A DNA stretch of 13,819 bases from Oligoflexales bacterium (lineage in GTDB: Bacteria > Bdellovibrionota_B > Oligoflexia > Oligoflexales > CACXFL01). A program made the translations under genes and the position numbers. The stretch lies in assembly GCA_028282865.1 (NCBI GenBank), contig JANQHA010000606.1, forward strand, positions 1 through 13,819. The letters are read 5' to 3'. This document shows, piece after piece, positions 1 to 13,378 of the stretch (within the stretch, counting starts at the first letter, position 1; each line of letters opens with the position of its first letter). The notes under the pieces are model-generated. The model was given only the letters and a program-made list of their open reading frames with translations, had not been told where the DNA came from and made no database searches.

Positions 1-1397
1 CGAGAAGGTTGAGTGCTCTCGCAATATGATTTGAGGTTATCTCGCTTACCTTCGCTAAGGCGATCTTCTAACTGCTTCAATACAGCTTCTGGACCGATCC
101 ATGCGCTGGCGAGCTGCTTTGCCGAGAAGCTATCTAAGATTTCTATTACTTTTTCGTCTGGTAACCTAACTAGCCATCCGAGTGATCGAACTCGCCTTGC
201 TAGGTCTAGATCAAATGGGCTTCGGTCTAGCAGATCTTGCTCATCTTCGATGCTACGAAGCCTTATTTCCTGAGAGGCCTTCAAGTTTCTAGGGTCAGAA
301 GTGGGAGCCGCGCTTATAATCTTAAGCACTTTGTCTAAGGGTATGTCACCGTCGCTTGAGTTGTTGTCTAGTTCAATTAGAACATTTGCCGGTATATCCA
401 ATTTCTCAAGTCTAAGAGGGCTGACTCTTGTAAATATAACAGGGTTGTCGAGGATAATCTTAGTAACAGCTGAGTTGTCTAGAAAGTGAAATGGTAATGG
501 ATCCAAGTAGCTTGGATGTTGCTCCAACCCTAAATCTGCTGGACTCTTAGTGGCCAGATATGCTGTATAAGACTGTAAAAATGATACCTCTTTAAGGATT
601 TCCTGCTTAACAGTTATTGGCATCTTCTTCCAAATATACGCTCCATACTCGTCATATTGAGACCAATAACAATCTGTGATTATCGATAAAAAAGATTCTT
701 TAGAGTATCCAGCATAGTTAGAAGATGACTCTCCTTGGGGTAACATAGCTACGTTAGGATCATTGACAGCTTTGATATTTGACGCCGGAGTATCTATGAT
801 TTGCTGCGATGACTCTAGCTTCTGAGATATGGCTATCGATGCTTCTGTTAATGATGACCTTAGCTTATTGATGCTTTTGATAACTAGAAATATACCTACT
901 GTTGCTAAGAAGATAAAGCTCAGTAGCAGTAGTGCGATAGTTGACCCGTAGGTCTGTAATATAGTTTCAGTCGCTTCTCTAGAGGTGCTCTCGTTGTTTT
1001 GTTTTTGACCTGGTATTTTTTGGGTGTTGAATTTAACCATGCCTGCTTTGAAACCCAATAAGTCGGCTAAGGTTCTTTTCATACTGTCATCTAACTCGAA
1101 ATTATTTGAAAAAACTGTCAAATAGACGGTTTTGATCTCTATTGAATTGTCGGATGTGCGAACGTTCATGTCCTTTACGACCAAGTTTGTGTGGGGAAGT
1201 GTAACGTTTGTGGTCTTAGGTACGAGCTTCAATGATACAATGGCATGCTCATCTATTTTTGTTATAAATGTTTGGGCTTTTTTTTCTAATTGCAATTCCA
1301 GTTCAGCTAAATGTGGCGGATTTATTACAGCATACCCTAGCGGGGCTATAAAGAAAAAGAATGAAATATTTAATAAAATTTTTGCCACAGCTCTCAT
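1..1397 (-). CDS. FliF/FliG-like fused membrane protein (partial, C-terminus beyond window)
   Basis: An open frame starts at ATG 1397 and runs without a stop off the left edge, giving 465 visible residues. Seen: a signal peptide or first TM helix at about 5-23 (basic start, then a Phe-rich core); an extracytoplasmic region at about 24-150; one strong TM helix at about 151-174; then a cytoplasmic, mostly helical region. Residues 101-130 (LDDSMKRTLADLLGFKAG) resemble the last periplasmic repeat of FliF, where an 'LV..AVGFD..RGD' helix precedes the second TM. Residues 405-458 (LVRLPDEKVIEILDSF, then AKQLASAWIGPEAVLK) follow the pattern of the FliG C-terminal domain ('LVKLDDRSIQRVL', 'DLALALKGASE'). 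Inferred: a compact natural FliF-FliG fusion acting as a rotor-like part. Its start overlaps the stop of the upstream lipoprotein gene (ATGA, 4 nt), with AAGAGAG upstream, so translation is probably coupled. The FliG match is by eye; the FliF match is weaker. It could instead be another ring protein with an ARM-like tail. Confidence 0.6.
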   Translation of the reverse strand, partial: MRAVAKILLNISFFFFIAPLGYAVINPPHLAELELQLEKKAQTFITKIDEHAIVSLKLVPKTTNVTLPHTNLVVKDMNVRTSDNSIEIKTVYLTVFSNNFELDDSMKRTLADLLGFKAGMVKFNTQKIPGQKQNNESTSREATETILQTYGSTIALLLLSFIFLATVGIFLVIKSINKLRSSLTEASIAISQKLESSQQIIDTPASNIKAVNDPNVAMLPQGESSSNYAGYSKESFLSIITDCYWSQYDEYGAYIWKKMPITVKQEILKEVSFLQSYTAYLATKSPADLGLEQHPSYLDPLPFHFLDNSAVTKIILDNPVIFTRVSPLRLEKLDIPANVLIELDNNSSDGDIPLDKVLKIISAAPTSDPRNLKASQEIRLRSIEDEQDLLDRSPFDLDLARRVRSLGWLVRLPDEKVIEILDSFSAKQLASAWIGPEAVLKQLEDRLSEGKRDNLKSYCESTQPS

Positions 1398-1963
1398 TGC
1401 TGAACTCTCTTACCTTGGATTTGATTTAACATTTGTTTTGCTATCTTATGCTCCGGGCTTTCCTTTAAAATGTCGTTAATCACTTCAACTGCTCTGGGTT
1501 GATCCCCTAACAGAACGTAACAGTTAGCCTTTAGAAGTTTTATCGCAATGATTGGAAGTTTTTTCTCGAGATCGACTATTTTTTCAAGAGCATTGGTTGT
1601 CTTCTTTTGACCGAGAAGTATCTGAACTTCATTAATAGAGTCGAGAGCCACCTGGATGTCTTGTTGCAGCTTCTTCTGATAGCTGGGTCCTCCCCAGTCC
1701 TCTATTTTTACAAGAGACGCGGTCATGGTAGATCTGGCCTCTTTGTCAGCCATCGGGTAGACCATTAGTGATATATGCCCTTCCTTCTCGATGATTATTG
1801 GTTGTGAGGTTAACTCTATTGGCTCGTTTGCCTTTATGGGCTTGCTGGCTTGCTCGCTATCCCTGAGAGTAGCACTCTGAGTCAGCACGAGTTGAGCCGT
1901 GCCTGGCTTAGCACACGAGCTAGCTAGAAAGGTGATTGATGCAAATAACCAAAAGTAACTCAT
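1394..1963 (-). CDS. TPR-like lipoprotein of the motor-like cluster
   Basis: This 189-residue protein begins with a short signal peptide ending in LASSC, so Cys17 is the likely lipidation site; Ala at +2 fits outer-membrane sorting by the E. coli rule. Residues about 48-80 look like a small beta domain. Residues about 92-185 are helical with TPR-like spacing: the pair around ALEKIVDLEKKLP and AIKLLKANCYVLLGDQPRAV then VINDILKESPEH has the usual small-residue/leucine pattern and ends in a Pro. A good ribosome binding site, AGGAGAA (1973-1979), lies 9 nt before ATG 1963. The gene overlaps the FliF/FliG-like gene by 4 nt, so the two are very probably made together. Inferred role: an outer-membrane-anchored partner or assembly factor (pilotin-like) for the envelope machine. 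No specific family is recognised. Confidence 0.7.
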   Translation of the reverse strand: MSYFWLFASITFLASSCAKPGTAQLVLTQSATLRDSEQASKPIKANEPIELTSQPIIIEKEGHISLMVYPMADKEARSTMTASLVKIEDWGGPSYQKKLQQDIQVALDSINEVQILLGQKKTTNALEKIVDLEKKLPIIAIKLLKANCYVLLGDQPRAVEVINDILKESPEHKIAKQMLNQIQGKRVQQ

Positions 1964-2133
1964 TTGTTTTGATTCTCCTGATCTTAGTATCGGAGCTAAG
2001 TATATGATCTTTAGGAAGTTAAATGTTTCTAACCGAAATAGTTATTTCCCACATATATACATTTTCTTTATCTTTTTTAGGTGTTTTAGCTATTTCTTGA
2101 AATTGTGCCAGAACCTAAGAATTAATAAATTCG
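1964..2133 (-). promoter_or_regulatory. intergenic region with possible promoter for the lipoprotein-FliF/FliG pair
   Basis: A 170-bp AT-rich gap separates the MotB-like stop from the lipoprotein start. On the minus strand a TATACT (1999-2004) is a plausible -10 box, about 36 nt before the start codon, but no convincing -35 box precedes it at normal spacing. A short imperfect hairpin (GAATT/AATTC, 2119-2132) sits just after the MotB-like gene and lacks a T-tract, so it is not a clear terminator. The gap may mark a second promoter within the cluster rather than the end of an operon. Confidence 0.25.
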
Positions 2134-2850
2134 TCAGTGAGATTGTAGAAAGTGTTTGGAAGAAATAGTGATTGATAGAGATCTGGATGCGTTTATATTA
2201 TCGGCTGCCCCACTGGTGATGATGTTTGAAGATGGAAAGCCATGTTTTTGAAAAAATAGTGCTGCTTGAGTCGCTCTTAGTGCACTCAATTGAAAGTTGT
2301 TGGTAAATTTTTCACTATGTACTGATACTTTTTGCTTGTCCGAGTGACCGATAAAATGGATCTTAAGTTTTTCTTTGTAAGGCGAAAGTACTGTGATTAG
2401 TCGTTTCATCTTTTTTTGGGTCGATGAATTTAATTGGTACCTTCTCTTGCCATAAGTATTGTTTGGGAAATTGATCCTAATAGTTTTGCCGGTGTTTGTT
2501 GTTTCGTAGGTTAAGTCTAGGTCTTTGGCTACTTGATCGATATTCGGTATCGCTGCTAATTGTCCTTGGTTTGATTGCTTAGCGGTCTTACTAGAACGAC
2601 TATCGTTTGCAGGTCGTCCAGCTTTCTGGGTCGCATTTCCTTTTAATTCGGTGGCAATTTGATCGATGATCTGCGTCTTTTGGCTCTTACCTTGAGAGAA
2701 GAAGATTACGAAGAAACCCAAAAGTACCATAAGCATGTCAGAATAAGCGACTGACCATAAATGGTCATTTTCGCTACTCGACCCGGTGTCACGAATGTAC
2801 CGAGGTTTGGCGGCAGGTAGTTTATGATTCTCATCTGGTTCATGCCGCAC
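2134..2850 (-). CDS. MotB-like stator protein with OmpA-like domain
   Basis: With the preferred GTG start at 2850 the protein has 238 residues: a short cytoplasmic N-terminus, one TM helix at about 32-52 (WSVAYSDMLMVLLGFFVIFF), a low-complexity linker at about 53-105, and an OmpA/MotB C-terminal domain at about 115-230. Asp38 in the helix matches the proton-carrying Asp of MotB. The C-domain shows GHSD (168-171) and NNFQLSALRA (184-193), which correspond to the GHTD and NWELSxxRA motifs of peptidoglycan-binding MotB domains. In flagellar motors such a protein pairs with MotA, forms the ion channel and anchors the stator to peptidoglycan. An ATG at 2895 would add 15 residues but has no Shine-Dalgarno sequence; GTG 2850 has AAAGAGG 9 nt upstream and overlaps the motA-like stop by 11 nt. 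Shorter than typical MotB. A Tol/Pal-like or Zorya role is less likely. Confidence 0.85.
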   Translation of the reverse strand: MRHEPDENHKLPAAKPRYIRDTGSSSENDHLWSVAYSDMLMVLLGFFVIFFSQGKSQKTQIIDQIATELKGNATQKAGRPANDSRSSKTAKQSNQGQLAAIPNIDQVAKDLDLTYETTNTGKTIRINFPNNTYGKRRYQLNSSTQKKMKRLITVLSPYKEKLKIHFIGHSDKQKVSVHSEKFTNNFQLSALRATQAALFFQKHGFPSSNIITSGAADNINASRSLSITISSKHFLQSH

Positions 2851-3547
2851 GGTTGCTGACCTCTTTCTCGATAATCGACCCAGCAATATCAGCATTAATC
2901 ATAGCTAGAGTCTGATAAACTTGGTCTAGCTGCTGCTCACGTTGTTTAGTATATATTTGGCAGTGGTCAGCGAATGGTAGGATAAAGCAATTCGATAGGA
3001 ATAGTCCATAAAATGTAGCTGTCAATGCTAGGGCTAATGCGAAGCCGATATTCTCGGTGCCGGACTCATTAAGTTTTGAAAACATGCTAACTAGTCCGAC
3101 TACGGTACCGGTCATACCTAGTGCCGGGGGGTATTTCGCCAAATTTTTTAAAACAGCGACAGTATTATGATACTCGTCAATTATCTCGATTCTTTTTTGG
3201 TCTAGCAAGCTATTAATCAGACTTGGTTCTACGCCATCGTCCCAAAGGCTTGCAGCGTAGTTAATAAGCACATTTGTTGAGGGAGTTGAGAGTTTTCGTC
3301 GCTTTGTTAATTCGGTCAGTTCCGAGCGTAGAGTGGCAGAGTTTGTCTTATCATTTGCTAACTCAATCAAAAGCTTGAATATTTTTCTTACAGATTTTTT
3401 TGGAGTTGAAGCTATTAGTATCGCAACAGTACCGCCAAAAACTATCGAGATAGCATGGAGATTTAAAAACAGCTGAAAAAAATCCTCTTGCGCCGTAAAA
3501 GCTATTGAGGCCAATACCAGAGCTGTACCTAGTAGCAATTTGTACAT
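2840..3547 (-). CDS. MotA-like stator/proton-channel protein
   Basis: This 235-residue integral membrane protein has four predicted TM helices, at about 3-20, 26-46, 139-160 and 168-192, with the large cytoplasmic loop between the second and third as in MotA. Residues 36-48 (VFGGTVAILIAST) match the MotA 'LGGTxAAxLIS' segment. Residues 139-155 (YPPALGMTGTVVGLVSM) match the MotA third helix, including its conserved Pro-containing start and GxxGTxxGL. Helix 4 (ALALTATFYGLFLSN) fits 'AVALLTTLYGxxLAN'. The cytoplasmic loop is a little short relative to flagellar MotA. RBS GAAAGG (3555-3560) is 7 nt before ATG 3547. With the overlapping MotB-like gene it should form an ion-driven stator complex in the inner membrane. 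The nearby FliG-like protein, rather than flagellar genes, suggests a dedicated non-flagellar motor. TolQ/ExbB is an alternative name, but the OmpA-tailed partner favours MotA. Confidence 0.85.
   Translation of the reverse strand: MYKLLLGTALVLASIAFTAQEDFFQLFLNLHAISIVFGGTVAILIASTPKKSVRKIFKLLIELANDKTNSATLRSELTELTKRRKLSTPSTNVLINYAASLWDDGVEPSLINSLLDQKRIEIIDEYHNTVAVLKNLAKYPPALGMTGTVVGLVSMFSKLNESGTENIGFALALALTATFYGLFLSNCFILPFADHCQIYTKQREQQLDQVYQTLAMINADIAGSIIEKEVSNRAA
2860..2866 (-). promoter_or_regulatory. ribosome binding site deciding the motB-like start
   Basis: AAAGAGG on the minus strand lies 9 nt before GTG 2850, inside the end of the MotA-like frame. The alternative ATG at 2895 has no purine-rich stretch at usable distance. 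The GTG start also gives the usual short MotB N-terminus. Confidence 0.55.
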
Positions 3548-3659: not shown

Positions 3660-6005
3660 CTATTTTATTGATCGTAGATCTTTAATAACCGAGAAATTCT
3701 TATTGTATCTTTGTACGGTTACGTACGATTTGCCTAAAACTTTGTGGTCTTCGTATGATCTTGTGGGTACTGCTATAAAATCTGCCTCATCTTTATTTGA
3801 GGTGTACTCTAATACCTTGCTGTTTTCGGTCCATAGCATTATCTGAAGGGCCGGTCCAATGGCATGGATCTTAAAGCTGCGTCCCGGATGCTCACGCAAT
3901 AACTTATTTTCGAGTTTAGCGATAAGCTCCAGATACGAATTGCCCCAATACTCGGACTCGTACTTTTTAAAAGCATATGCTGGTCCGCCTATAAACCTGT
4001 TGTAGTAGGTATATTCATGCGGATGTAGCTTCCACATAACTTCAATTGGTAGGGCGAACAGCGCGGCGATGAGAAATAATGTCGCAGCATAAAAGCCTTT
4101 TGAGCGGATCTCGACTAACTGTAAAGCTTTGTCTAATCCCGTAGCTGCAAATATAGCGAATACTGGGCAAACAAATAGTAGGTGCCGATAGTTATCATAC
4201 AAAACTGATTTCTTAAAGATAACGTAGGCTACGGGAAACAAACCCGCCAATAAAACTATGAATCCATTTACCTTAGTTTTAGTCGGTAGTTTAGGGGCGT
4301 AATATATTAAGCCGATGATGAACAACACCATACCTAGTAAGAAAACTTCAGTGTTTTGAATCATCATAAGATGTGGAATGTAGTCCCAAGGTAAATCTAG
4401 CGAACTAACTTCTGTGCCTTTGAAAGCAATCACCCCTTCCCAATTAAATTTGGACATTTCCGACAGTGCTAGGAAAGGGTTTACTAAGGGGTTCGTTTGA
4501 GCCCAAGGCCAGAAAAGTAGCATAATGATATAGCTAATTGCTATCGCAGTAGAACAAATTTTGACGGTTTGTATCAATGCTGCCTTAACGGGTAGTTTTC
4601 CTCGGGAAATATTAATGAGTATTGTTATTGCGACACCAAACACCAGGTAGCTATAAAGGACGAAACCTCCGACTCGAACGCCTAATGCAGCTCCCATCGC
4701 TAATCCAAGCTTGATAGTTAAACCTAGGGAAAATTGAGGCAGTTGGTTTAATAACTTTATTAAGTAGTAAATCGACCAAATGTAAGCGGTCGCGAAGGGA
4801 ATGTCCTTGGAGTTGATAAACATGTGTCCGTAAAAAACCGGGCTTAGTATTAATAACAAACCGGTAAGGAAACCAGCCCGCGCCTGTCCAGTAATAAGCC
4901 TGGCTAATCGGATAGCCCCGACAACACCTAACAAACCGAATAATGCCGTGCATAGTTTTCGAACCGTATAGACAGGAAGCCAGCGAAACCACTTGTCGAC
5001 CAATGACATCCAGAATTCAAAAAAACCGCCGTATAAATACAGGTTGCTGAAGTTGAGTGCTCGATGATCTTGAAAAAAACTAGCGTACCAATTTGCTACG
5101 AGCCGACCGTAATGGTGCTGGACTGGCTCGTCCCATACACTCCCGTAGTTTGGAAATGTTAAAGATATAATTAGCACCGCTACACCAAGTAACCAAACCG
5201 TAGCGCGGTCCCAGCGTCCATCCGGTGTCTTCAGATTAAGTTGTTCATAGAATAGCTTAGTGCGGATTTTTAAAATCTCTAGTGACATTTTTACAGAATC
5301 TATCGCAGGATTAACTCTGCTGTCATCGATGGCATTCCAAGTGATTGGTTGTTCAATGATATTGATGTTTTGCCTGTTCGCTCTCATTAGTATTTCAACA
5401 TCATGAGCCCATCCTGTTAAATAAAGTTCCTGGAAAAGCTCTCGCCCCAATTCACCAGGGTAGAGTTTAAACCCGCATTGACTATCGTAGATGCTCAGGT
5501 TGCTGGAAGTTTGGACTAGTAGATTAAATACCCTGCCCATAATGCGACGCAGTTTTTTATCACTCACGATGGATTCGCTGTGCTCTCGAGATCCAATATG
5601 GATGGTGTTAGTGCAATTAAAATCAACGCGCTTGCTCGCATGCCATTTCATGACTTCCAATGGATCCGTGGCAATATCTGCATCCATAGTTAGCAACCAT
5701 TGGCCAGTGGACTTTTGAACCCCCGCTTTAAGGGCTGCCCCTTTCCCGAAATTTCTGGAAAGATTGATAATATTAAGGTCCAGTGACAGTTTGTGTTCTT
5801 TGGTGTGATCTATGAATTCTTTTTGGAGCTTGGTTAGAGCTTCGGCAGTTTGATCTATACTGCCGTCGTTTACTAAGATGAATTCATAACTTGAAAATGG
5901 CAATTGAGTCTGAGCTATGAAATCCCATAAACTTTTTTTAAGCAAAGATACTCTATTTTGTTCGTTGTACAGCGGAACAACGATTGAGAGCTTTTGGTTA
6001 TTCAT
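3660..6005 (-). CDS. two-domain glycosyltransferase: GT2 polyprenyl-phosphate sugar synthase fused to GT-C membrane transferase
   Basis: The protein has 781 residues. Residues 1-255 form a GT2 GT-A domain of the DPM1/ALG5 type: SIVVPLYNE (7-15), ILVNDGSIDQT (43-53), RNFGKGAALKAG (84-95), the metal-binding DAD at 108-110, CGFKLY (177-182), and a C-terminal part (QPITWNAIDDSRVNP) like ALG5. Such domains load a sugar from a nucleotide donor onto dolichyl/undecaprenyl phosphate. Residues about 267-655 carry about ten hydrophobic helices of a GT39/ArnT-like GT-C enzyme, with WDEP (291-294) in the first external loop as the likely catalytic acidic site, and HPHEYTYYNRFIGG (661-674), a signature seen in this class. 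The last 100 residues are soluble. Inferred: the enzyme makes a lipid-linked sugar and then transfers it to a protein or envelope glycan outside the inner membrane. The gene follows the thiolase gene by 33 bp. ATG 6005 has only a weak ribosome binding site. Confidence 0.85.
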   Translation of the reverse strand: MNNQKLSIVVPLYNEQNRVSLLKKSLWDFIAQTQLPFSSYEFILVNDGSIDQTAEALTKLQKEFIDHTKEHKLSLDLNIINLSRNFGKGAALKAGVQKSTGQWLLTMDADIATDPLEVMKWHASKRVDFNCTNTIHIGSREHSESIVSDKKLRRIMGRVFNLLVQTSSNLSIYDSQCGFKLYPGELGRELFQELYLTGWAHDVEILMRANRQNINIIEQPITWNAIDDSRVNPAIDSVKMSLEILKIRTKLFYEQLNLKTPDGRWDRATVWLLGVAVLIISLTFPNYGSVWDEPVQHHYGRLVANWYASFFQDHRALNFSNLYLYGGFFEFWMSLVDKWFRWLPVYTVRKLCTALFGLLGVVGAIRLARLITGQARAGFLTGLLLILSPVFYGHMFINSKDIPFATAYIWSIYYLIKLLNQLPQFSLGLTIKLGLAMGAALGVRVGGFVLYSYLVFGVAITILINISRGKLPVKAALIQTVKICSTAIAISYIIMLLFWPWAQTNPLVNPFLALSEMSKFNWEGVIAFKGTEVSSLDLPWDYIPHLMMIQNTEVFLLGMVLFIIGLIYYAPKLPTKTKVNGFIVLLAGLFPVAYVIFKKSVLYDNYRHLLFVCPVFAIFAATGLDKALQLVEIRSKGFYAATLFLIAALFALPIEVMWKLHPHEYTYYNRFIGGPAYAFKKYESEYWGNSYLELIAKLENKLLREHPGRSFKIHAIGPALQIMLWTENSKVLEYTSNKDEADFIAVPTRSYEDHKVLGKSYVTVQRYNKNFSVIKDLRSIK

Positions 6006-11776: not shown

Positions 11777-13378
11777 TTATTTGCTTGATAGCGCACCACC
11801 CACAATGCCGGTTAGTAGTCCGCCGTTTAAGCCGATTTGGGTCCCTGCATAAAAACTGTTATAAATAAACTTGTCTCCAATTGGATAAGAGAAAGCTCTT
11901 TCTCCGGTACTCCAATCAACCCCTTCGAAGGTCCAGTTTGAGCCCCATATAAAGCTCGACGGCCCGTTCGCACCAACGCAGTACATTAGCCCGGTCGCTT
12001 CGCTCATACTGGGTATTCCATTAGGGCAGCTTATTTGATCGTTGGCCCACGCCGACGAGAGCGTTTTACCATTTGTATCCCAACTGAACTTTTCTACCCC
12101 CTTAGGCGAAACGGCCTTATGGTTTGATAGTGCTACGACCCTGCCTCCAGGTGATAACTTTCGGCCCATTTTTTCAGATACAAACTTCACGACTCTTTTC
12201 ATAATTGGATTAGGTTTCCCGTACTTATTGCTGACAACAACCGCATCGTAACCTCTGACTAATATCGATTGCTCGGTTACTGAAGTCAATTGGTTCATAT
12301 CGACACTACTGCGCTCATCATGCGGGACAAAAGTGATTGGCGTTGTGGCAGCTATCCTTGGGTCCTGGCCATTTTTCCCTTGCCAGTTTTCAGGGACTTC
12401 ACCTCGCCATACTAAAACTAGGTTCATGAGGTTTTGACCATCGGCAAATACTACAAACTTGTCCTGCCCAGCACCGTGCCCCATAAGAGTCGGTGTTGTG
12501 CCAGAACCGCTGCCTAGGCGTCCATCTGTGGGCTCCGATGAAGACTGATATGCCACCGCCCACTGATGACTGATACCTGCGTTTGTTTCTATTTGGATTT
12601 TATGAATCGCTCGACCTGTTAGCACGAATATTCCTCCCTCTTCGTCAATCGCAATTGAGTTAGAAATATCTGCGTTGTGTTGCTCAATAAATACTTCGTA
12701 GTACTGATCAAAATTTCGATCTATGTAGCCCACACGACCGAGGTTTGTCACAAAAACAATATGGCCATCAAATGCCAAGCTCATACCGACGATCATTTCA
12801 TTTGGTATTGGGCTAGGCATAGTGAACTCACCTAGTTTTGTGATGGCAAAGCTTTCCTCTGGGTCCGAAAACTTACCGATAGTTTGGCCGTAAGGTACGA
12901 AGAAGTTGTTTTCGTTATCGACTAGGTGATATGCACCTGACAACGCAGCCTTTTCATCGTCATCACTCTTAGGGGTAACTCGAAGCCGATTCGCAACCTT
13001 CCAGGTGTCGCTGTCTATGACAAATACCTCACCTGTTGCATACCCCCAGATGGCATGTTTGCCTGAGCTATATCTCGATGAGATCGAAAGAGTGACAGAA
13101 ACCGGAGGCGCTTGATCGCTGATTCTTGGAGAAAAATCCGACTCTGATTGGGGCCCTACATATGGTGACGAAGCTTGGGCGTAAGGGTTCCTGTGAGTCA
13201 TGGGCCATGGCGAATCAGCTAAGAAAGTATTTTTAGGAGGTTCCTTGCTTAAGGTCGGTATAGCAGCACCGTTAGCCGCAGAGTAGATAAAGTTGTCTCG
13301 TCTGGTCCTCTTCGAGCTGCAGGAAATAATGAAACCCAATATTAGGAATAGCCGTAGTCCGGTCGTAAAATTGCCCAT
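11777..13378 (-). CDS. hypothetical lipoprotein with beta-propeller-like repeats
   Basis: This 533-residue protein starts with a lipoprotein signal peptide (LFLILGFIISC, Cys20; Ser at +2 suits the outer membrane). A basic, low-complexity stretch and a WPMTHRNPYAQASSP segment (58-72) follow; the latter recalls the 'WPMxxxDPxxT' start of PQQ/Kelch-type propeller proteins. From about 92 onward there are recurring beta-strand-like blocks with Gly and Asp turns (WGYATGEVFVIDSDTW, AFDGHIVFVTNLGRVGYID, IDEEGGIFVLTGRAIHKI, GLMYCVGANG), consistent with a six- to eight-bladed propeller. No catalytic motif is recognised. The C-terminus is Gly-rich and hydrophobic. GTGAGG (13384-13389) lies 5 nt before ATG 13378. 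The gene is monocistronic in view and ends 4 bp from carB, tail to tail. Function unknown; an extracytoplasmic binding or scaffold role is the most that can be said. Confidence 0.75.
   Translation of the reverse strand: MGNFTTGLRLFLILGFIISCSSKRTRRDNFIYSAANGAAIPTLSKEPPKNTFLADSPWPMTHRNPYAQASSPYVGPQSESDFSPRISDQAPPVSVTLSISSRYSSGKHAIWGYATGEVFVIDSDTWKVANRLRVTPKSDDDEKAALSGAYHLVDNENNFFVPYGQTIGKFSDPEESFAITKLGEFTMPSPIPNEMIVGMSLAFDGHIVFVTNLGRVGYIDRNFDQYYEVFIEQHNADISNSIAIDEEGGIFVLTGRAIHKIQIETNAGISHQWAVAYQSSSEPTDGRLGSGSGTTPTLMGHGAGQDKFVVFADGQNLMNLVLVWRGEVPENWQGKNGQDPRIAATTPITFVPHDERSSVDMNQLTSVTEQSILVRGYDAVVVSNKYGKPNPIMKRVVKFVSEKMGRKLSPGGRVVALSNHKAVSPKGVEKFSWDTNGKTLSSAWANDQISCPNGIPSMSEATGLMYCVGANGPSSFIWGSNWTFEGVDWSTGERAFSYPIGDKFIYNSFYAGTQIGLNGGLLTGIVGGALSSK

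Follow-up and report, generated by a model that had tools for sequence, protein, structure and literature searches.

A gene cluster with MotA- and MotB-like stator genes and a FliF-FliG-like fusion gene in an Oligoflexales bacterium, a candidate non-flagellar rotor-stator machine

The stretch of DNA analysed here (the window, 13,819 nucleotides) is the entire contig JANQHA010000606.1 of an Oligoflexales bacterium (G000:C561 in our numbering), from a genome assembled in 683 contigs (GCA_028282865.1). The cluster under study lies at the left end of the contig, where four genes, all on the minus strand, occupy positions 1-3547 and code for a MotA-like and a MotB-like stator protein, a lipoprotein and a FliF-FliG-like fusion protein. 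The motA-like gene (2840..3547; 235 amino acids, aa) matched PF01618 with an E-value of 3.7e-19; the prolines typical of MotA are kept, with equivalents of the channel prolines P173 and P222, and the torque-interface region is shortened. The motB-like gene (2134..2895; 253 aa) encodes a single transmembrane (TM) helix, which carries the channel aspartate, and a peptidoglycan-binding domain of the OmpA type (MotB_plug, 9.3e-8; OmpA, 3e-8), both also seen to be kept in the motif comparison. The two proteins, proposed as stator proteins in the first-pass annotation, are clear Pfam members, and channel aspartate, MotA prolines and a peptidoglycan-binding MotB, features of a flagellar-type stator pair, are all found in the window.

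The lipoprotein gene (1394..1963; 189 aa) encodes a lipobox with Cys17, a region without assigned fold and a TPR-like C-terminus, and its product is probably of the outer-membrane type. The fusion gene (3..1397) is cut by the contig end; 465 aa are seen and about 38 codons are missing in comparison with homologues of 501-503 aa. Its product consists of a signal/TM1 segment, a FliF-RBM3-like periplasmic domain (963..1322, approximately residues 26-145), a second TM helix (882..938, approximately residues 154-172, by hydropathy; a long helix spans residues 147-204 in the model of the homologue P0001) and FliG-like cytoplasmic helices. The FliG_C-like stretch (6..224, approximately residues 392-464) was placed by a profile-profile match of the window family to a broader fusion family. 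The single-strand arrangement and the two gene overlaps described previously were confirmed: motA and motB overlap by 56 nucleotides if the first ATG of motB is its start, and the lipoprotein and fusion genes by 4 nucleotides. With 170 bp lying between motB and the lipoprotein gene, the cluster may form two transcription units; promoter-like and terminator-like sites were not clearly in excess of those in shuffled DNA (6 versus a mean of 8.8 and 4 versus 3.0, respectively).

No FliF or FliG match was obtained for the fusion in Pfam, in the PDB by sequence, or in NCBIfam or PADLOC, the last two scanned with P0001. The homologue search, which relatives sharing few words with the query would escape, returned two further members among 7,998 and 8,000 scored candidates; a first scan of genome contigs gave none and a second just the two known contigs, of G034 and G038. 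A weak match in G018 (E 0.0027) was rejected, as its frame reads by eye as a PilB/GspE-type ATPase, and it was gone with a larger profile.

A FliG_C family search of related genomes returned ordinary FliG and many longer proteins ending in FliG_C. A large group of the latter are fusions, with signal/TM1, periplasmic domain, TM2 and FliG-like helices, mostly adjoining MotA and MotB genes. Class A fusions (547-592 aa) stand in the order TPR-fusion-MotA-MotB in loci L083, L087, L097, L126 and L127, and are rearranged or cut in L128 and L129; class B fusions are mostly of 630-813 aa. Pfam FliG_C was above cut-off in seven of the nine class A and B fusions scanned, and in locus L082 of a further group. 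An outer-membrane-type protein is shared by the class A loci L083, L087 and L128, its L083 copy having a sub-cut-off match to the PorV/PorQ family (E 3.2e-6). SpoIIE-type phosphatases stand behind motB or the fusion gene in all three class B loci scanned (L110, 2666-4459; L118, 8388-10688; L092, 9369-11483), with HAMP above cut-off in L118 and below it in L110; regulation by phosphorylation is possible in these loci.

Two other groups of FliG-like proteins were observed. Long proteins with a FliG-like C-terminus and a membrane helix occur at G000:C457 (L081 2819-3907, cut), L082 (4193-6436), L084 (6555-8900) and L096 (4429-6810); the three complete ones measure 747-793 aa, and no MotA or MotB was found in the stretch read. 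The L082 protein, the only member of its group scanned, carries Pfam FliG_M and FliG_C. Small proteins of 147-178 aa, with little beyond FliG_C, occur at G000:C171 (L080 930-1385), L093 (6128-6610), L098 (6742-7185) and L099 (6042-6578), the last falling below the Pfam cut-off.

The homology of the window fusion to FliG is supported through an intermediate, from the window family to the broader family and from there to FliG. Compared with a profile of the 26 class A and B fusions, the window family matched at FliG_C with an E-value of 2.9e-10 and a score of 85, the maximum of 40 column-shuffled decoys being 17.2, the reversed profile scoring 25.6 and six unrelated profiles from the same loci scoring at most 22.4. 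The broader profile in turn matched flagellar FliG with an E-value of 7.2e-19 over 288 columns, and flagellar FliF with a probability of 88.6 and an E-value of 2.7e-6 in the RBM3 region (Escherichia coli FliF residues 230-430), neither pair having been given decoys. The periplasmic part of the window family matched the broader family weakly (E 1.4e-3). The evidence on the fold comes from one model, that of the 503-aa homologue P0001, for which the top PDB matches in Foldseek were FliG (9n49_G, 3usy, 1lkv) and the FliF RBM3 domain (6sd1, probability 1.00); the FliG of a MotAB-FliG complex was also matched (8ucs_H, probability 0.99, TMt 0.59), and the FliF-RBM3 and FliG matches fall in the right order along P0001. 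Judged from sequence profiles, the FliG likeness of the window fusion is real, and its FliF likeness is probable. The membrane protein had been described as FliG/FliF-like on first reading, a description that stands by fold and by profile-profile comparison and fails at the level of a direct family match.

Conservation was assessed in a phylum sample of 58 genomes, the class holding the same 58. Forty regions were chosen around FliG-like matches, not covering all such matches, so that genome counts are lower bounds. A fusion gene had MotA and MotB genes within 6 kb of it in 23 of the 40 regions, from at least 21 genomes, or 22 of the 58 with the window. A TPR protein was also present in 20 of the 23. 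The first ten loci contributed to the MotA, MotB and TPR profiles; among the MotAB-bearing loci added afterwards, 11 of 14 had a TPR protein. The 17 uncounted regions included contig ends, proteins with FliG_C only, proteins of 750-850 aa without MotAB in the stretch, one region of ordinary FliG, G009:C125 (MotA, no MotB found) and G036 and G037 (fusion alone). In G034:C233 and G035:C71, MotA and MotB stand 4-6 kb from the fusion gene and do not adjoin it. The window type itself recurs in another genus: in G034 the lipoprotein gene, the fusion gene with the same 4-nucleotide overlap and a putative barrel gene share a strand, opposite to that of MotA and a truncated MotB. In G038:C132 (L015 10314-10976), likely a decaying remnant, a C-terminal FliG-like piece of the fusion stands alone beside the barrel gene. 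The conserved co-occurrence that was looked for is thus present, as the exact type in G034 and as the broader fusion-MotA-MotB set in the other genomes, and the gene module is a real, conserved one.

The lipoprotein had been described as TPR-like. Its TPR models match below the Pfam cut-off, and the description holds through its family: in a profile comparison the window-type lipoproteins were homologous to the class B TPR lipoproteins (97.9%, E 3.7e-13), and the lipobox cysteine is invariant in 12 sequences of both types. Of 33 matches to the lipoprotein profile (A9) at E <=1e-10, 21 lay within 10 kb of a fusion match by eye count, 11 of the 33 being profile rows picked for standing beside a fusion. 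The putative outer-membrane barrel (217 aa) is encoded after the fusion gene in G034, on the same strand as the lipoprotein and fusion genes; the assignment draws on length, position and general sequence appearance and, for one of the two copies, on a hydrophobic stretch at the N-terminus, and the protein has no Pfam match and no profile similarity to class B barrels.

In the MotA tree, which has no true root and some long branches, the window pair groups with class A (96/93); across that branch lie E. coli MotA, class B and three other MotAs of G000. The MotA of G046, split in two frames, was omitted from the tree and from the motif comparison. Four further MotA-type matches were found in G000, and each of the three that were read adjoins a MotB gene.

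On this evidence, the cluster is interpreted as a non-flagellar rotor-stator machine, with a probability of about 0.64. MotA and MotB would form an ion-driven stator held to the peptidoglycan by MotB, and the FliF-FliG-like fusion would be a one-piece rotor whose RBM3-like periplasmic domains pack into a ring in the inner membrane. MotA would push the FliG-like cytoplasmic part of the fusion, and the TPR lipoprotein, with a putative small outer-membrane barrel beyond the wall, would pass motion or load to the outer membrane. The identity of the parts is likely, and their neighbourhood is conserved, by sequence or fold; formation of a ring, rotation and coupling to the outer membrane are inferred, and that the machine serves gliding motility or moves components of the cell surface is a guess. 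The ion-driven machine proposed in the first-pass annotation, with an inner-membrane stator, a membrane rotor and an outer-membrane lipoprotein, is supported: neither the window nor the sister locus L014 was seen to have a flagellar export or rod gene directly beside the cluster, FliG and FliF similarity was found by fold and through intermediate profiles, and the co-occurrence of the genes extends to other genomes.

Several observations weigh against the rotor-stator interpretation. The window family matched FliG directly with an E-value of only 0.02 (score 25.7, decoy maximum 22.3), and its C-terminal part alone matched the broader profile with a score of 41 (E 8e-5, decoy maximum 15.5), the same columns scoring about half as much as in the whole-family comparison. 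The P0001 model is modest (pLDDT 63.7, pTM 0.34): no Foldseek E-value is below 0.001, unrelated folds soon follow the top matches, the periplasmic domain is matched better by ribosomal chains than by FliF, and the structural alignments to FliG have a large rmsd. The exact window type is rare, being found in 3 of the 58 genomes, one of them a remnant, and the putative barrel was not found in G000. Among the lipoprotein matches outside the profile rows, just 10 of 22 have a fusion match within 10 kb; the lipoprotein family is therefore not confined to fusion loci.

The interface between stator and rotor also bears on the comparison with the flagellum. In E. coli, MotA and FliG meet through charged residues, R90 and E98 of MotA with R281, D288 and D289 of FliG. 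To the further detriment of the interpretation, the window MotA has a lysine at R90 and a gap at E98, and in the alignment the window fusion family lacks an acid at D288 and D289; as the equivalents of E98 and of D288/D289 are absent, the contact would be of another kind or weaker. The interface of the window type differs or is lost, which is the main point against full equivalence with the flagellar motor. Ten class B loci combine an acid at D289 with a basic residue at MotA R90. Over 22 class A and B pairs, counted by eye and leaving out the four of the 26 fusions without a MotA partner in the alignment, both residues were present in 10, the acid only in five, the base only in none and neither in seven (Fisher p 0.005, uncorrected for shared ancestry). 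This pairing fits a direct contact between MotA and the fusion but is only suggestive.

An accessory role to a flagellum in the same cell, in which the flagellar motor would be modified by an additional stator and a further FliG-like switch component, is regarded as unlikely. In its favour, the genome of the window has FlhA, FliG and FliF elsewhere, and the module is therefore an extra in G000, next to the further MotA-type matches mentioned above; of the 22 module-bearing genomes, 17 also have an FlhA match. FlhA was undetected in 11 of the 58 genomes; the module is present in five of these (G002, G009, G021, G029 and G032). In G002 and G021 (completeness 96 and 93), which have the broader module, neither FlhA nor FliF_C was detected and the sole FliG_C match is the fusion beside MotAB, which speaks against an accessory. 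In G029 only fusion matches appeared in the broader-profile search, this genome having been left out of the FliG_C and FliF_C searches. G009 has FliF and FliG matches and G032 has FliG-type matches, so in these two the missing FlhA may be an assembly gap, and because the assemblies are incomplete the absence of flagellar genes is provisional. Furthermore, the fusion has a TM and RBM3-like part of its own that a C-ring add-on would not need, and neither E. coli MotA nor any of the three further G000 MotAs in the tree groups with the window MotA. The module seems to be kept without need of a flagellum. In agreement with the first-pass annotation, no flagellar rod, hook, filament or export gene was seen in the window, six of whose proteins were scanned with Pfam and the rest read by eye.

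No better placed is a Tol-Pal-like role in envelope maintenance or mechanosensing, that is, ion-driven pulling or sensing across the envelope with no rotation of a large ring, which we likewise consider improbable. The TPR lipoprotein and putative barrel partners would suit it, as would the signalling suggested by the phosphatases of the three class B loci and the lack of charged torque contacts in the window type. However, if there is no ring, it is hard to account for a protein that joins a full-length FliG homologue to a ring domain of the RBM3 type, and MotB has an OmpA-type anchor as flagellar stators do, unlike the non-flagellar transporters described in the available part of the source (PMC12505986). 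Finally, that the fusion is a bitopic protein of other descent, made up of an alpha/beta domain and helical repeats, standing near motAB by chance and resembling FliG and FliF superficially, would agree with the lack of a direct family match, the better fit of ribosomal chains and a direct FliG match that barely exceeds decoys, but is very improbable, since two separate parts match two flagellar rotor partners in the right order, the broader-profile match is far above decoys, and the lipoprotein partner is homologous and the MotA/MotB neighbours the same as in a clear FliG-fusion family.

If the rotor-stator interpretation is extended to the phylum, the module would represent a class of motors with a flagellar-type stator, a one-piece FliF-FliG rotor coupled to outer-membrane lipoproteins and barrels, without flagellum or secretion apparatus; this wider claim is tentative, its chances falling somewhat short of even. 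To our knowledge, the flagellum is the only setting in which an ion-driven motor is known to have a true FliG-type rotor. If true, a one-piece rotor and stator in genomes without detected flagellar genes would mean that the flagellar power unit works, or once worked, apart from the flagellum, a separation that bears on the relation between flagella and non-flagellar motors. The class would also constitute a separate type of surface-motility or envelope motor, provide a short gene list for gliding tests and offer a candidate motor for flagellum-independent gliding in relatives of Bdellovibrio; proof that the module rotates and drives surface movement would make it a motor of a new kind.

Outside the cluster, positions 3660-6005, on the motA strand and 112 bp upstream of that gene, encode a large protein that combines a GT2 glycosyltransferase domain with a membrane part weakly resembling PMT; no GT2 neighbour was seen at the G034 module. 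A 533-aa secreted or lipoprotein-like protein without any family above cut-off is encoded at 11777-13378.

The first-pass annotation knew of no named system with this make-up, and no description of one was found in the open-licence literature, a scope that leaves most subscription papers outside and within which papers were available in part; the module is apparently undescribed. With Zorya (ZorAB) it shares a MotAB-type pair, and the window MotB weakly matches ZorB (PADLOC, E 3.5e-8), but a FliF-FliG-like partner is present here, MotA has just 235 aa against the long cytoplasmic tail of ZorA, and no ZorA, ZorC, ZorD or ZorE match was obtained with PADLOC among the four proteins scanned. The GldLM motor of the Bacteroidota type IX secretion system (T9SS) is similar as a 5:2 motor driving an envelope machine, to which the sub-cut-off PorV/PorQ-family match of class A locus L083 may be added; according to the available parts of two sources, GldLM is not clearly homologous to MotAB, and no FliG-type rotor is described in them (PMC13104615, PMC9389320). 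The Agl-Glt machinery of Myxococcus, with one homologue of MotA and two of MotB (AglQ, AglS), and for which the same parts describe no FliG or FliF homologue (PMC13104615, PMC9389320), is likewise a MotA-like/MotB-like ion-driven motor coupled to outer-membrane proteins; the window differs in having one MotB gene and a rotor-like fusion. In Bdellovibrio, the gliding machinery is still unidentified according to the available part of a 2026 review (PMC13104615).

The nearest precedent found in the open-licence literature, as far as its available part goes, is the FliF-FliG fusion of the Chlamydiaceae, whose FliG portion is reported as the M region; FliF, FliL and FlhA are the flagellar genes named there, with no MotAB (PMC4768692). 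The architecture of the window fusion, as modelled for its homologue, looks like the short FliF periplasmic region joined to FliG M that is described there, a likeness drawn from description and model; in the window, by difference, the FliG-like part stands beside MotA, MotB and a lipoprotein. The parts of the module are flagellar-motor parts: the MotA/MotB stator, the FliG-like rotor domain and probably the RBM3-like periplasmic domain have their counterparts in the flagellar motor. In contrast to that motor, no export, rod, hook or filament gene is seen alongside and the window type has no charged contacts, and the FliF-like and FliG-like parts are joined in one protein, accompanied by a TPR lipoprotein and a putative barrel.

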